A DNA stretch of 64,000 nt, taken from Balneola sp. EhC07. GTDB taxonomy: Bacteria; Bacteroidota; Rhodothermia; Balneolales; Balneolaceae. The translations under genes were made by a program, and so were the position numbers. The stretch is from positions 186,001-250,000 of the forward strand of contig NZ_LXYG01000002.1 of assembly GCF_001650905.1 (NCBI RefSeq). The letters are read 5' to 3'. Shown here piece after piece: positions 1,278 through 33,127 of this stretch. The notes beneath the pieces were generated by a model. The model saw only the letters and a list, made by a program, of their open reading frames with translations. It searched no databases and was not told the DNA's origin. Each line of letters starts with the position of its first letter. The stretch's first letter is position 1.

Positions 1278-2549
1278 ATGAAATTCCGCGATCTTCAAAT
1301 TATTGAACCTATCCAAAAGGCTCTTAAAGAACAGGGCTATGATAAGCCTACACCAATTCAGGAACAATCTATACCAATTTTACTGGCCGGAAAAGACCTT
1401 CTGGGTTGTGCGCAAACCGGTACCGGGAAAACTGCTGCTTTCGCAATTCCGATCCTTCAACATTTATCTGATTCTCATGAACCTGATAATCCCAGGCGCT
1501 CAATAAGATCTCTGGTGATCACTCCAACCAGAGAATTAGCGATTCAAATTGCTGACAGCTTTACTACATACGGACAATATACTGACATCAAAAATACCGT
1601 TATTTATGGAGGAGTTAAGCAGCAAAAGCAAGTTAAACGGCTTAAAGCAGGCGTTGATATACTTGTAGCCACCCCCGGAAGATTGTTGGATCTGATGAAT
1701 CAGGGATTCGTGTCGCTAAAAGATGTAGAGTATTTTGTACTTGATGAAGCCGATCAAATGCTGGATATGGGATTTATTCACGATATCAAGAAAGTAATTG
1801 CCAGATTACCCAAAAAACGACAATCACTATTCTTTTCGGCAACCATGCCTGCTGCTATTGTGAATCTTTCTAAATCCATTCTGGGAAACCCCGAACGAGT
1901 GACTATAACTCCTGAAAAAGCAACAGCAGAAAAAGTAGAACAGCATCTTTTTTATGTCAGCAATGGAAATAAGATCAAATTGCTGATCAATCTTCTTCAA
2001 ACAGATCTAATAACTTCTTCTATTGTCTTCTCCAGAACTAAGCATGGAGCGAATAAGATCGTGAAACAGCTATTAAATGCTGAAATTAGTGCAGAGGCTA
2101 TTCATGGAAATAAGTCTCAACCCGCCCGTCAAAGGGCATTGGAAAATTTTAAAGATGGAACTACAAGAATCTTGGTAGCTACAGATATTGCTGCACGTGG
2201 AATTGATGTAGATGATGTCTCTCATGTTATAAATTATCATCTTCCAAATATTCCGGAAACCTATGTACATCGTATTGGAAGAACAGGCAGAGCCAATGCA
2301 AGTGGTATAGCTCTCTCCTTCTGTGCTGTTGATGAACGTCCGTTTTTACGGGATATTGAGAAATTAATTAATCAGAAAATTGAAGTAATTTCTGAACATC
2401 CTTATCCTGATGACTCAGAGGAACCGGCTAAACCTGCATCAAAAGGATCTAACAGAAGCAGATCTAAGAGCAATGGTAGTAGAAATTCCAGAAGGAAAAA
2501 CACTAGTAGCCGAAATAACCGTAACTCGAGATCACGAAATAGAAACTGA
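1278..2549 (+). CDS. rhlE: DEAD-box RNA helicase, RhlE-like
   Basis: ATP-dependent RNA helicase expected to act in ribosome assembly or RNA turnover. Visible motifs are the Q motif PTPIQEQ (25-31), AQTGTGKT (45-52), PTRELA (83-88), TPGR (132-135), DEAD (156-159), SAT (187-189), ARGIDV and HRIGRTGR (about 320-330). After about residue 377 the protein ends in a low-complexity tail rich in Ser, Arg and Asn, probably an RNA-binding extension. At 423 residues it matches the RhlE subgroup. Its stop codon is the first three bases of a TGATAGC heptamer array, and a YwbE-like gene follows 39 bases later. Distinguishing RhlE from other DEAD subfamilies rests on length and the basic tail. Confidence 0.92.
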   Translation: MKFRDLQIIEPIQKALKEQGYDKPTPIQEQSIPILLAGKDLLGCAQTGTGKTAAFAIPILQHLSDSHEPDNPRRSIRSLVITPTRELAIQIADSFTTYGQYTDIKNTVIYGGVKQQKQVKRLKAGVDILVATPGRLLDLMNQGFVSLKDVEYFVLDEADQMLDMGFIHDIKKVIARLPKKRQSLFFSATMPAAIVNLSKSILGNPERVTITPEKATAEKVEQHLFYVSNGNKIKLLINLLQTDLITSSIVFSRTKHGANKIVKQLLNAEISAEAIHGNKSQPARQRALENFKDGTTRILVATDIAARGIDVDDVSHVINYHLPNIPETYVHRIGRTGRANASGIALSFCAVDERPFLRDIEKLINQKIEVISEHPYPDDSEEPAKPASKGSNRSRSKSNGSRNSRRKNTSSRNNRNSRSRNRN

Positions 2550-2577
2550 TAGCTGATAGCTGATAGCTGATAGCTGA
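2547..2577 (+). repeat. Heptanucleotide tandem array (TGATAGC)x4
   Basis: Four perfect copies of TGATAGC followed by TGA. The first TGA is the stop codon of the upstream helicase. Because seven is coprime to three, the array places TGA in all three forward frames. It is one of several 7-bp-period arrays in the window with unrelated unit sequences. Confidence 0.9.
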
Positions 2578-4289: not shown

Positions 4290-4343
4290 AAAGACAGGAA
4301 TTATATTCCTTTATTCCTAATTCCCTTATTCCTAATTTAAAAG
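4290..4343. repeat. Degenerate heptamer-type intergenic repeat
   Basis: The gap between the M42 peptidase and the thioesterase holds AGGAAT-TAT-ATTCCT and then TTATTCC/TAATTCC/CTTATTCC/TAATT units with a period close to seven. The same TTCCTAATTCCC wording recurs at about 33058-33110. It resembles a worn heptamer array. Confidence 0.55.
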
Positions 4344-4344
4344 T

Positions 4345-4791
4345 ATGATCAAACCTGACTACGATTCCGATTTCTTTTACCATTGGCATGAACTAACTGT
4401 ACGATTCAGCGATGTAGATTCACTTCAGCATGTCAATAATGCAACATTCAGTACTTATTACGAAGAGTCCCGATTACGTTTTCTGGGTGAATATTTCGAG
4501 ATGAGTAAGGAATATTACGAAGGGCGTTCTTTTGTGATGGTTCGTTCTGAAATTGAATATCTCGGTCAGATCAAATTTCCGGATTCTATTTTGATCGGAA
4601 CCGGCATTCTGAAAGTCGGTAATTCCAGCCTGGATACCTATCAAGCTATATACAACAAAGAATCTAAAAAGCTCTTGAGTGTTGCTCAAACTACAGGCGT
4701 TTGGTTCGATCTGAACAAACAAAGACCGGTAAAACTACCTGAAATTCAGAATCTCGAAGCCATGCTCATAAAAACTGATCAAGATGGATAA
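4345..4791 (+). CDS. Acyl-CoA thioesterase, hotdog fold (4HBT/YbgC type)
   Basis: A 148-residue single hotdog domain. The N-terminal signature VRFSDVDSLQHVNNATF (19-35) carries the catalytic Asp and the HVNN turn of 4-hydroxybenzoyl-CoA-type thioesterases, followed by YYEESRLRFL on the central helix. It would hydrolyse acyl-CoA esters in the cytoplasm; the acyl chain cannot be predicted. The 3' end overlaps the next gene by eight bases, which suggests translational coupling. Confidence 0.88.
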   Translation: MIKPDYDSDFFYHWHELTVRFSDVDSLQHVNNATFSTYYEESRLRFLGEYFEMSKEYYEGRSFVMVRSEIEYLGQIKFPDSILIGTGILKVGNSSLDTYQAIYNKESKKLLSVAQTTGVWFDLNKQRPVKLPEIQNLEAMLIKTDQDG

Positions 4792-29024: not shown

Positions 29025-29040
29025 GGGGAAAGGTTACATG
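29025..29040 (-). promoter_or_regulatory. Candidate ECF promoter -35 element upstream of the sigma gene
   Basis: Read on the minus strand, CATGTAACCTTTCCCC includes an AAC core as in many ECF -35 boxes. The same 15-base wording occurs upstream of the serine hydrolase at 30284-30298, at a comparable distance from the start codon. No -10 box could be fixed with confidence. It could alternatively be just part of the larger direct repeat. Confidence 0.45.
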
Positions 29041-29043
29041 TTT

Positions 29044-29101
29044 TTAGTATCGAACTTTTAGTACTTAGTATTTAGCAACTCGATACTAAATACTAAGTAC
29101 T
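29044..29101. repeat. Heptamer-derived palindrome, copy A
   Basis: AGTACTTAGTATTTAG (29060-29075) pairs with 29086-29101. An alternative 10-bp pairing joins TTAGTATCGA (29044-29053) with TCGATACTAA (29080-29089); the two hairpins share bases and cannot form together. Underlying units are variants of TAGTATT with a 7-bp period. Copy B lies at 30303-30360. Confidence 0.8.
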
Positions 29102-29104
29102 CAA

Positions 29105-29156
29105 AACAATCAAACAGGCAACCCCTCCTATATAATTATTTCAAACTCATCCGGAC
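29105..29156 (-). pseudogene. Remnant of a MutS-like gene 3' end
   Basis: On the minus strand this segment encodes SPDEFEIII-stop-EGLPV-stop, aligning with the last residues STNALEIMRIEGLPV of the intact MutS-like gene that ends at 30369. The DNA shares GGGTTGCCTGT exactly and is about 70 percent identical by eye. An internal TAG shows decay. It forms part of a direct repeat that brackets the serine hydrolase gene. Confidence 0.65.
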
Positions 29157-30302: not shown

Positions 30303-30360
30303 TTAGTATCGAGTTGTTAGTACTTAGTATTTAGTAACTCGATACTAAATACTAAGTACT
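30303..30360. repeat. Heptamer-derived palindrome, copy B
   Basis: The 18-base arm at 30319-30336 is the perfect complement of 30343-30360, with a six-base loop. A competing 13-bp hairpin joins TTAGTATCGAGTT (30303-30315) with AACTCGATACTAA (30336-30348). It lies eight bases past the stop codon of the MutS-like gene and could act as a terminator or switch on the minus strand, though no T-run follows. Confidence 0.85.
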
Positions 30361-30368
30361 AAAAGCTA

Positions 30369-32183
30369 TCATACAGGCAACCCTTCTATTCTCATTATTT
30401 CCAGAGCATTTGTACTTGGACATGGACCTGATTTCAGCTTGTATTCAAAACTCATTTTTCCACCTTCTATAGATTCCACGAAATGCCAATTGCTCAATGC
30501 CTCGATTTCAGATTCCAGATCAGCAAGTTCCAGATCATGTGTGGAAACCATTCCAATTCCATTCTTCCCCGCTACTTCCCTTAGAAAAGCTGCACTACCG
30601 GCGTAACGCTCTTTGTTATTTGTGCCTTTATAGATTTCATCCACAAAAAAGAACAATGGCTGATCTTCATCTTTGTTTAGCTCGTCCAGTAATTCCCGAA
30701 GACGCTTTACTTCAGCGTAAAAATGAGACAAACCGTCACCCAGCGAATCATTCACATTGATGCTGGTAAAGATTCTGTATAAACCTGTGTTTAATGATCT
30801 AGCATTTGCAGGCGCTCCGGAATAAGCCAAAACTAAATTGATTCCCACCGTTCTGAGGAATGTACTTTTACCGGCCATATTCGAGCCTGTTATCAAAAAC
30901 AGATCTTTTCCTGGATACACTTCGAAATCGTTAGCTACTTTTTGGTCTTCAGGAATCAACGGATGACCAAGTTCTTCTGCTTTAAACAAAGCCCCGGTAT
31001 CTTTATCGAATGTTGGGAAAGAATAATCGCCATTAAGAAAAGCAAAATTAGCCATCGAATTTAAGGCTTCAAGTTCGTAAAATTTATCGAGCCATTTTGT
31101 GATTTTTGGCTCCAGTTCCACTTTAAGGTTTTCCAAACGCATCGAAAAATACAGATCCCAGGGAATAACTAAGTTCATAAGCGGACCTAATACCTGATTT
31201 TTTTGTACAGAGGCTGCGATAGCAAATCTCCTCACTTTTTTCAGGATCACAGACGGCTTTTCATCCTCTTTCTGATATACTTTTAAGAATTGTGATATTT
31301 CTTTGTCATCACTCGCTTTAAATCGTTCAACATGACTCAGAATATTACTAAAGCTTCCTAATAACTTTTCCATTTGGAACGCAGCGTCAAACAATCCTTT
31401 TACCTTATCACTGGTAAACTTAAGAGCGGTAAGATAACTGACAAACGAGATCACAACATATACACTGCTGAGTTTACCGACCATTGCTAAAATTCCTAGT
31501 GTCACATTTGATACCGAAAGAATAACCATGATTACTAGGGGAAGAATAAAACCCGTTTTCTTTGGAAGTCGGAGCCAGTCCAACATTTGCTCCATACTCC
31601 ATTCATATCTACCGGTTTTACTTTTAGTAAATAAAGCCTCTACTCTCAGTTTGTCTCTGAATAATTGCAGTGGAGCTAATTCCTGTATCAATTGCTGTCG
31701 TTTTTTTATTGATTCTACTTCTCTGGATTGATTCAACAGCAAACCGGAAAGCACATTTGAACTGCCTTCATAGATCGATGTATCCATCAACTGAAACAAT
31801 GATCTTTTCCCGATTATATTTAAGTCCTGGGAGTAAGGATGGTTCAAATATTTATCTCTGTTTATATTTCTGAAGGGTATTCCATCCCAGTTCAGTTCCA
31901 GACGTGCAATTTGCTCTTTCTTGATTTGCTTCAGAAACCCAAGTTTCTCAATGAATTGCTCAACTTTTTTATGTCTGCCCATGAGATTCAGAAATGCAAT
32001 TACTGCTCCGATCAAGATCACCGAATAAACTAAATCATGTAAACGACCACTTGCCAGAAAAGCGAAAAGCAAAGTCAACATAAAGATAGTTAACCGTGCT
32101 CCTGATATTCTACTGCTCAACTTAGTATACAACTCGATCTTTCTGTCAATACGAGCTATATGTTCTTCAAATAATTTCTTCAA
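30369..32183 (-). CDS. Membrane-anchored MutS-family ATPase
   Basis: A 604-residue protein. Two hydrophobic helices lie at about 30-68 and two more at about 210-255 (LPLVIMVILSVSNVTLGILA). The C-terminal third is a MutS domain V ATPase: Walker A GSNMAGKSTFLRT near 430, Walker B LFFFVDEIYKGTN and the switch STHDLELA. The N-terminal mismatch-recognition domain I and connector domain of MutS are absent. This matches the uncharacterised MutS-like group common in Bacteroidota, probably not canonical mismatch repair. An Smr-domain gene lies 129 bases upstream on the same strand, so the pair together resembles a split MutS2. Confidence 0.85.
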   Translation of the reverse strand: MKKLFEEHIARIDRKIELYTKLSSRISGARLTIFMLTLLFAFLASGRLHDLVYSVILIGAVIAFLNLMGRHKKVEQFIEKLGFLKQIKKEQIARLELNWDGIPFRNINRDKYLNHPYSQDLNIIGKRSLFQLMDTSIYEGSSNVLSGLLLNQSREVESIKKRQQLIQELAPLQLFRDKLRVEALFTKSKTGRYEWSMEQMLDWLRLPKKTGFILPLVIMVILSVSNVTLGILAMVGKLSSVYVVISFVSYLTALKFTSDKVKGLFDAAFQMEKLLGSFSNILSHVERFKASDDKEISQFLKVYQKEDEKPSVILKKVRRFAIAASVQKNQVLGPLMNLVIPWDLYFSMRLENLKVELEPKITKWLDKFYELEALNSMANFAFLNGDYSFPTFDKDTGALFKAEELGHPLIPEDQKVANDFEVYPGKDLFLITGSNMAGKSTFLRTVGINLVLAYSGAPANARSLNTGLYRIFTSINVNDSLGDGLSHFYAEVKRLRELLDELNKDEDQPLFFFVDEIYKGTNNKERYAGSAAFLREVAGKNGIGMVSTHDLELADLESEIEALSNWHFVESIEGGKMSFEYKLKSGPCPSTNALEIMRIEGLPV

Positions 32184-32258
32184 CTTTGGATAGATTTAGA
32201 TAGTTATCACTTTTCAAATTTAAGGACCCTATTTTTTAAAGATTACAGGTTTAACCAA

Positions 32259-32318
32259 AGTTAATAGTTATTGGTTATTAGTTTTTTGCTCACCACTACT
32301 CCCAAATAACTATTAACT
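32259..32318. repeat. 14-bp inverted repeat, heptamer-like
   Basis: AGTTAATAGTTATT (32259-32272) and AATAACTATTAACT (32305-32318) are perfect complements with a 32-base spacer. The left side continues as GGTTATTAG, giving a 7-bp period. The right arm overlaps the stop codon of the Smr gene. Confidence 0.7.
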
Positions 32319-32579
32319 ATTTTTAAGCTCCACCAATGTAGCTCCCCAACTACTTCTGTCATCCGCTAAACGATAGGAAACAACAAACTCATTTTTATCC
32401 AACAAACTATGAACCGTTCTGCGAAGCACCCCCTTCCCTTTTCCGTGAATGATCCGAATGGAATAGATCTCTTTCTCTAAACAAGCTTCAATGTAATCCG
32501 GAATCAAGTCTCCCAATTCTTTAGGACTGAAAAGATGCAGGTCTAAAATTCCGTCAATAGGCAATTCAACAGGTTCCAT
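32313..32579 (-). CDS. Smr-domain protein
   Basis: An 88-residue single Smr domain. LDLHLFSPKELGDLI (12-26) contains the LDLH motif and IIHGKGKGVLR (43-53) the HGxGxG loop associated with nuclease activity on DNA or RNA in MutS2 and related Smr proteins. It lies upstream of the membrane-bound MutS-like ATPase on the same strand. Canonical MutS2 carries both parts in one chain, so the adjacent genes may be functionally linked; this is inference. Length is typical for a free-standing Smr protein. Confidence 0.85.
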   Translation of the reverse strand: MEPVELPIDGILDLHLFSPKELGDLIPDYIEACLEKEIYSIRIIHGKGKGVLRRTVHSLLDKNEFVVSYRLADDRSSWGATLVELKNS

Positions 32580-32582
32580 TCT

Positions 32583-32619
32583 AGTTATGAGTTATGAGTT
32601 ATGAGTTATGAGTTATGAG
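32583..32619. repeat. Heptanucleotide tandem array (AGTTATG)x5
   Basis: Five perfect copies of AGTTATG plus AG. It lies directly upstream of the Smr gene start and includes TGA in all three forward frames. It is the cleanest heptamer array in the window together with the one at 2547. Confidence 0.92.
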
Positions 32620-32640
32620 TTTTTAGTGTTGAGTTCTCGC

Positions 32641-32661
32641 TTCACTTTTCACTTTTCACTT
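32641..32661. repeat. Heptanucleotide tandem array (TTCACTT)x3
   Basis: Three perfect TTCACTT copies ending exactly where the stop codon of the Dabb gene begins (minus strand). The array is 22 bases from the AGTTATG array, so two different heptamer families sit in one 80-base gap. Confidence 0.85.
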
Positions 32662-32967
32662 TTATACATAATCAACTACTCTTCGCTCATTCACCACCTT
32701 CTTAATAAACTGGACTACTTTTTGATGGTCAGGATGTTCTGCATACGCATTTAAAGCTTCCGCATCTTTACAAATCGTTGTCAGAACTACATCACAAATA
32801 GCTTCATCATCACCACTCAAAATATTGATCCCAACTTCTGCCGAATCCAATTCTTCGATTTTTGCAGGTAATCCTTCCAGTAATTCTTTCATGATCTCAG
32901 CGTTTTCCTGTTTGGTTTTCCCTTCAGCAACCGGTTTCAGTTTCCACATTACAATGTGTTTTATCAT
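32662..32967 (-). CDS. Dabb (stress-responsive A/B barrel) domain protein
   Basis: A 101-residue ferredoxin-like barrel protein. IKHIVMWKLKP at the start and LNAYAEHPDHQKVVQFIKKVV near the end are the Dabb signatures. These proteins form dimeric barrels and some are cyclases or stress proteins; this one cannot be assigned a substrate. It stands in a minus-strand string with the Smr and MutS-like genes, separated by the heptamer arrays. Confidence 0.88.
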   Translation of the reverse strand: MIKHIVMWKLKPVAEGKTKQENAEIMKELLEGLPAKIEELDSAEVGINILSGDDEAICDVVLTTICKDAEALNAYAEHPDHQKVVQFIKKVVNERRVVDYV

Positions 32968-33039
32968 ATTTTATAGTAGTTAGATTTTAGATATAAGATG
33001 TTAGACTTCAGAATATCCAACTTCCATCAGGGAATAGCC

Positions 33040-33127
33040 AATATCCATTTACACAAATTCCTAATTCCCATATTTACTTATTCCCAATTACTCAATTATT
33101 CCTAATTCAACTATTCGTAATTAACCA
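33040..33127. repeat. Degenerate heptamer-type intergenic repeat
   Basis: The gap between the Dabb and folE genes holds repeated TTCCTAA/TTCCCAA/TTACTCA/TTATTCC words with a loose 7-bp period, matching the wording at 4290-4343. It appears to be a decayed array and probably also lies near the folE promoter. Confidence 0.5.

Follow-up and report, generated by a model that had tools for sequence, protein, structure and literature searches.

The 85-nt gap between two genes of the marine bacterium Balneola sp. EhC07, encoding a stress-responsive A/B barrel (Dabb) protein and a stand-alone Smr domain protein, is probably a single compound array of tandem heptanucleotides, renewed from within by slippage in 7-nt steps, mutation of its units and re-amplification. 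The gap lies within the 64,000-nt stretch of DNA that we analyzed (the window), in a genome whose intergenic DNA contains period-7 repeats well beyond chance expectation.

An earlier reading of the window from its letters only (the sequence-only reading) had described two unrelated heptamer arrays in this gap, with units AGTTATG and TTCACTT, spaced 22 bases apart. Both arrays are present far above chance, with 5.6 and 3.3 perfect copies, respectively (arrays A and B; Table 1). The spacing was close to correct, the perfect arrays being 19 nt apart, but they are not unrelated: both share one continuous heptamer register, and the spacer consists of worn heptamers. Read on the coding strand from the Dabb stop codon to the Smr start codon, the gap parses into 11 words in a single 7-nt register (TAA, AAGTGAA x3, GCGAGAA, CTCAACA, CTAAAAA, CTCATAA x5, CTAGA, ATG). 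Two of the spacer words, CTCAACA and CTAAAAA, each share five of seven positions with CTCATAA. By composition, a run of 32 lag-7 matches is expected ~1.7e-14 times per 64-kb window and a run of 16 is expected ~2.8e-5 times; on these values, order-3 Markov expectations and Markov resamples, we rejected chance as an explanation. We also considered a terminator, a promoter, a known RNA and a structured leader, and rejected each, as signals in the gap are no higher than in shuffled sequence (no Rfam match, no promoter or terminator excess and an RNA structure z score of +0.86). Neither focal unit contains a G-tract.

Table 1. Heptamer arrays and flanking genes in the window
Feature	Position	Strand	Remarks
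Array CTGATAG x4.6	2546..2577	+	TGA of first unit is the stop codon of the upstream ORF (2547-2549)
Worn period-7 array ATACTAA x2.7	29083..29101	not assigned	
Worn period-7 arrays TTAGTAC x2.9 and ATACTAA x3.1	30317..30363	not assigned	
Worn period-7 arrays AGTTATT x3.6 and TAACTAT x2.1	32259..32321		Gap downstream of Smr
Smr gene, downstream	32313..32579	-	88-aa stand-alone Smr domain protein; PF01713, E 3e-18
Array A, AGTTATG x5.6 on + strand	32583..32621	-	CTCATAA/AACTCAT on coding strand; 3 nt short of Smr start codon
Worn in-register heptamers between arrays	32622..32640	-	GCGAGAA, CTCAACA, CTAAAAA on coding strand
Array B, TTCACTT x3.3 on + strand	32641..32663	-	AAGTGAA on coding strand; adjoins Dabb stop codon
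Dabb gene, upstream	32662..32967	-	101-aa stress-responsive A/B barrel protein; PF07876, E 1e-23
Worn period-7 array TTAGATA x3.7	32980..33005		Upstream of Dabb gene

Elsewhere in the window, the sequence-only reading had listed further arrays with the same period. That at 2547 is exact, and its unit, CTGATAG, forms arrays at four further loci in the genome. Those at 29044, 30303 and, in worn form, 32259 fall in segments with clear lag-7 periodicity (29030-29105, 30303-30365 and 32255-32325), which none of 1000 Markov resamples equaled; the same is true of 32975-33010. Around the worn array placed at 33040, the signal is weaker (33010-33125, p ~0.003), and lag 15 is just as strong. At 4290-4345, where another worn array had been reported, period 7 is unconvincing (p ~0.11) and lags 8 and 15 are stronger. 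The Smr gene also has as a neighbor a 604-aa protein (30369-32183, minus strand) with MutS domain V as its sole Pfam match. Together, this protein and the 88-aa Smr protein resemble a MutS2 whose parts have been separated. Elsewhere in the genome (C19:293447-295129), an 818-aa frame encodes a MutS-type protein that also matches Smr.

We located the orthologous gap in related species through the flanking proteins, using one assembly per species. In the four closest sister species, the Smr protein is 97.7-100% identical and the Dabb protein 92-95% identical. Against 85 nt in Balneola sp., three sister species have gaps of 50, 57 and 64 nt; these differences are all multiples of seven, and the alignment shows gaps of 7, 14 and 21 nt. 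The three gaps contain two, three and four copies of AAGTGAA and two, two and one copies of CTCATAA, the last accompanied by one variant. GCGAGAA has no counterpart in G037, G028 or G017, where AAGTGAA precedes CTCAACA. In a fourth congener, G053, a 51-nt gap with other heptamer words lies between flanking proteins that are 94-98% identical; the words include TGAATAA and CCAATAA (L101 and L130), and wholesale replacement instead of drift is possible at this site. More distant family members carry in this gap ATGACCA x9 followed by ACGACTA/ACGAATA, GACCAGT/GACCAAT, CGAATAA x12, and CAGTGAG or CAGTAAG, and in several relatives (G018, G007 and G036) the gap is near zero and has no array. Repeated slippage of short seeds, which the sequence-only reading had offered as one origin, gains partial support from the whole-unit copy change at the focal gap, which favors slippage or unequal exchange. 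Such whole-unit differences between species, together with an array reaching to within 3 nt of the Smr start codon, could also mark a phase-variable contingency locus, at which copy number tunes Smr expression via the stop-to-start distance or the 5' leader. However, Dabb and Smr are housekeeping-like proteins and not surface antigens, and relatives manage without the array; we consider a contingency function highly improbable.

Words also change within a register. In G022, ATGACCA x9 is followed in one register by ACGACTA, ACGAATA x3 and ACGAGTA x2, with ACGAAAA last, and in G046 GACCAGT x4 passes into GACCAAT x4. In G053, AGCTGTC gives way to AGCTATC at a locus other than the Dabb-Smr gap, and L130 of the same genome contains AAGACAT x8 followed by AAGATGT x3.8. 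Such series are what point mutation of a unit and re-amplification of the mutant would leave. The sequence-only reading had judged that one ancestral repeat could hardly account for a constant period with changing words. Drift inside a single register, as in G022, G046 and G053, runs counter to that judgment and resolves most of the puzzle.

Copy number differs at other loci as well, for which orthology was judged from coordinates and selected loci. An array of TCAGAAC has kept its position, with 12.3 copies in Balneola sp., 8.3 in G017, and 11 plus 12 in G037. The two arrays of G037 lie ~98 bp apart (L209:1501-1761) where Balneola sp. (G000) and G017 each have a single array, and the pair suggests a local duplication taking in the array. 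For the 2546 array, the orthologue in G017 is shorter, and none of comparable length was found in the congeners G053, G028 and G037, whose proteins are 94-98% identical. A segment of ~710 bp is present in G028 (L210:804-1512) and missing from Balneola sp. (L050:14736-14739), with the break directly at the AAAGGTG array; a single copy of the array is seen in L210.

To place the focal gap in a genomic context, we tallied intergenic perfect repeats by period, against an order-3 Markov expectation, in 1.86 Mb of the 3.62-Mb assembly (about half; 20 contigs), with genes approximated by long ORFs. At period 7, 15 runs of at least 10 were found vs 0.3 expected. The corresponding counts were 2 vs 0.7 expected at period 6 and 0 vs 0.45-0.75 expected at periods 4, 5 and 8, and there were none at periods 9 and 10. 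The excess is visible from about two copies, as runs of at least 6 numbered 148 at period 7 vs 60 expected, with other periods near expectation. Arrays with a run of at least 12 were intergenic in 13 of 17 cases, vs ~9% of the sampled DNA by these approximate gene calls. Bulk intergenic autocorrelation, by comparison, is 0.285 at lag 7, 0.286 at lag 6 and 0.282 at lag 8; given this small bulk signal, the arrays are discrete loci, and most gap DNA is not recognizably heptameric. The sequence-only reading had proposed such a scan and had named a lack of any excess of period seven over five, six and eight as the finding that would speak against it. The scan instead revealed an excess at seven, with the other periods near expectation.

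Other members of the family depart from this period. We found three period-8 arrays in 400 kb of G022, and a TGA-spaced period-8 pattern occurs in 24 of 58 family genomes; these pattern searches detect only stop-containing words, and we use genome counts alone because overlapping matches inflate the number of hits. No period-8 arrays were seen in the sampled 1.86 Mb of Balneola sp. itself. Given the period-8 arrays of its relatives, seven is a strong lineage preference and no fixed constant. Seven is thus preferred genome-wide, but the suggested fixing of the length does not hold in absolute terms. A further family member, G014, has 95+41 matches to the reversed AGT period-8 pattern and none to the TGA period-7 pattern, and possibly contains long period-8 arrays.

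In the mechanism we favor, a 7-nt word at or just after an upstream stop codon would be duplicated by misalignment, through either replication slippage or unequal exchange. From the second copy onward, whole 7-nt units would be gained and lost, and a point-mutated unit could be re-amplified in the same register, so that the word changes and the period remains seven. Because steps of 7 nt shift the reading frame in coding sequence, arrays would be confined to gene ends and gaps, where their words would therefore tend to contain stop codons. Positions relative to genes are mixed; array A closely precedes a start codon, and many arrays start at the upstream stop codon. The stop codon in the first unit is that of the upstream ORF in the 2546 array, at C17:389111, and in the CAGTGAG and CAGTAAG arrays of G032 and G055, respectively. 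A coding strand could be assigned to 37 arrays, and the sense unit of 30 of these contains a stop codon, vs 45% of background 7-mers (p 9e-6); the stop is found only in sense in 22 and only in antisense in 5. The bias remains after collapsing to distinct units (23/30, p 5e-4) and after removing arrays that overlap a stop codon (15/19, p 0.003); the arrays in these tests are partly interdependent, and genes were called approximately.

An enrichment of this kind might instead reflect selection for a translational buffer. As 7 equals 1 modulo 3, an array of a stop-containing word presents stops in all frames and would end read-through between co-directional genes. The excess of coding-strand stops accords with such a role, including the bias among arrays that miss the gene's own stop codon, as does the TGA or TAA found in sense in most words of the focal gap and its distant counterparts. 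However, periods 4, 5, 8 and 10 would serve equally well and show no excess, long arrays exist without sense stops (TCACCTT x7.9, CCTCACT x7.4 and AAGGGAA x6), some arrays sit between divergent genes, and G018, G007 and G036 have a near-zero gap and no array. Moreover, seeding at stop codons predicts the same bias: 82% of windows across a stop codon carry a sense stop, so gene-end seeding suffices and selection for stops is unnecessary. We therefore regard the buffer as unlikely.

Within the mutation and re-amplification model, we infer that slippage is the agent and that 7-nt loops escape mismatch repair. MutS recognizes longer loops poorly. MutS1 scored above the cut-off in 8 of 8 genomes of the genus; its presence is in line with suppressed slippage of 1-4 nt and led us to reject loss of mismatch repair as the cause. 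The congeners G043 and G049 yielded no TGA-type arrays in a search limited to stop-containing words, and as both also have MutS1, mismatch repair does not explain the presence or absence of arrays. Further observations count against the model. Escape from mismatch repair should also favor periods 5, 6 and 8, and these show no excess here. Simple seeding predicts that words are used according to their single-copy frequency, yet AGCTATC is of average frequency (129 single copies vs a mean of 132; rank 365 of 1171) and is arrayed at five loci. The model leaves the preference for seven, and the recurrence of a few words at unlinked loci, outside its explanation. Judged from sequence comparison, the between-species data would fit slippage, unequal crossing-over or conversion alike, and cannot separate them.

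The reuse of words extends beyond AGCTATC. AAAGGTG likewise forms arrays at five loci in the Balneola sp. genome, arrays of both words recur in four congeners, and TGAGTTA and TGAAAAG arrays are found in further families of the phylum. A longer mobile repeat carrying the arrays was rejected, as the 300-bp flanks of same-word arrays are without similarity. The reuse of few words points to expansion that depends on the unit, or to words spreading without their flanks. One possible reason for such spread is that words such as TGATAGC, AAGGTGA and AAGTGAA bind a DNA- or RNA-binding protein, and that arrays are dispersed or retained for regulation, an idea proposed for TAACTGA by MacGregor (PMC4679880). 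Identical words at unlinked loci in one genome and its sister species would fit this proposal, as would their reappearance in other families and the failure of single-copy frequency to account for them. Nonetheless, we think regulatory sites quite unlikely: same-word arrays share no flanking sequence, sister species differ in words and copy numbers beside genes that are well conserved, placement relative to genes is mixed, and the focal gap lacks the promoter, terminator, Rfam and structural signals described above. It is very unlikely, in our estimation, that an activity particular to this lineage and working in 7-nt steps (8 in some relatives), for example a word-preferring polymerase or repeat-binding protein, builds and spreads arrays at gene ends. 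If true, it would cover the fixed period as well as the recurrence of a small set of words at unlinked loci, where they would give frame-independent stops.

In most bacterial genomes rich in repeats, the commonest long simple repeats are heptanucleotides; their excess is mainly intergenic, and slippage tied to the contact length of the polymerase on DNA has been proposed (Mrazek et al. 2007, as summarized in PMC4679880 and PMC4692102). Neither of those two papers names Balneola among its genomes. Set against the repeats as summarized there, the Balneola arrays are alike in having 7-nt units beyond chance, mainly intergenic, with whole-unit copy change between species, but differ in an excess visible from two copies, in-register drift and stop-codon adjacency. 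Direct repeats of TAACTGA occur in Beggiatoaceae, Cyanobacteria and some Bacteroidetes, with mixed heptamers in the last; they are intergenic, contain forward-strand stop codons and differ between strains mostly in 7-nt increments (MacGregor 2015, PMC4679880). The Balneola arrays are similarly intergenic and stop-bearing, with 7-nt length steps, but use many words, and their positions are often just behind a stop codon, not solely ahead of a start. TAACTGA is absent from the array units listed for the sampled half of the Balneola sp. genome. In Xanthomonas and Nostoc, GGGAATC and GGGGA(C/T)T form G-rich heptamer repeats near ORF ends (Rehm et al. 2015, PMC4692102). Like these and the cyanobacterial STRR heptamers, Balneola places few words near ORF ends at numerous unlinked sites between genes, and its arrays likewise vary in length and sequence between close species. 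The Xanthomonas and Nostoc heptamers are, however, G-rich and quadruplex-forming, whereas the Balneola arrays lack structure and have an A-rich coding strand. Our literature search found no mention of Balneola, tandem repeats and intergenic DNA together. An excess of heptamers, reuse of units and length variation between species are already known from other bacteria; the taxon, in-register unit drift and the association with stop codons are new here. The arrays are real, non-random and biologically ordinary in kind.

A practical consequence is that heptamer arrays can break assemblies. An AGCTATC array spans the end of contig C1 (L016:16386-16431) and the start of C7 (L022:1-44), and as the two are contiguous in G053 (L211), the assembly broke at the array. 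More broadly, why bacteria prefer seven has been an open question since the 2007 report. The Balneolaceae offer a compact comparative system for addressing it: arrays occupy orthologous gaps whose flanking genes are nearly identical, sister species differ by single units, some congeners lack such arrays and some relatives have arrays of period 8. Comparisons within this family make the ideas of polymerase contact, escape from mismatch repair and selection testable.
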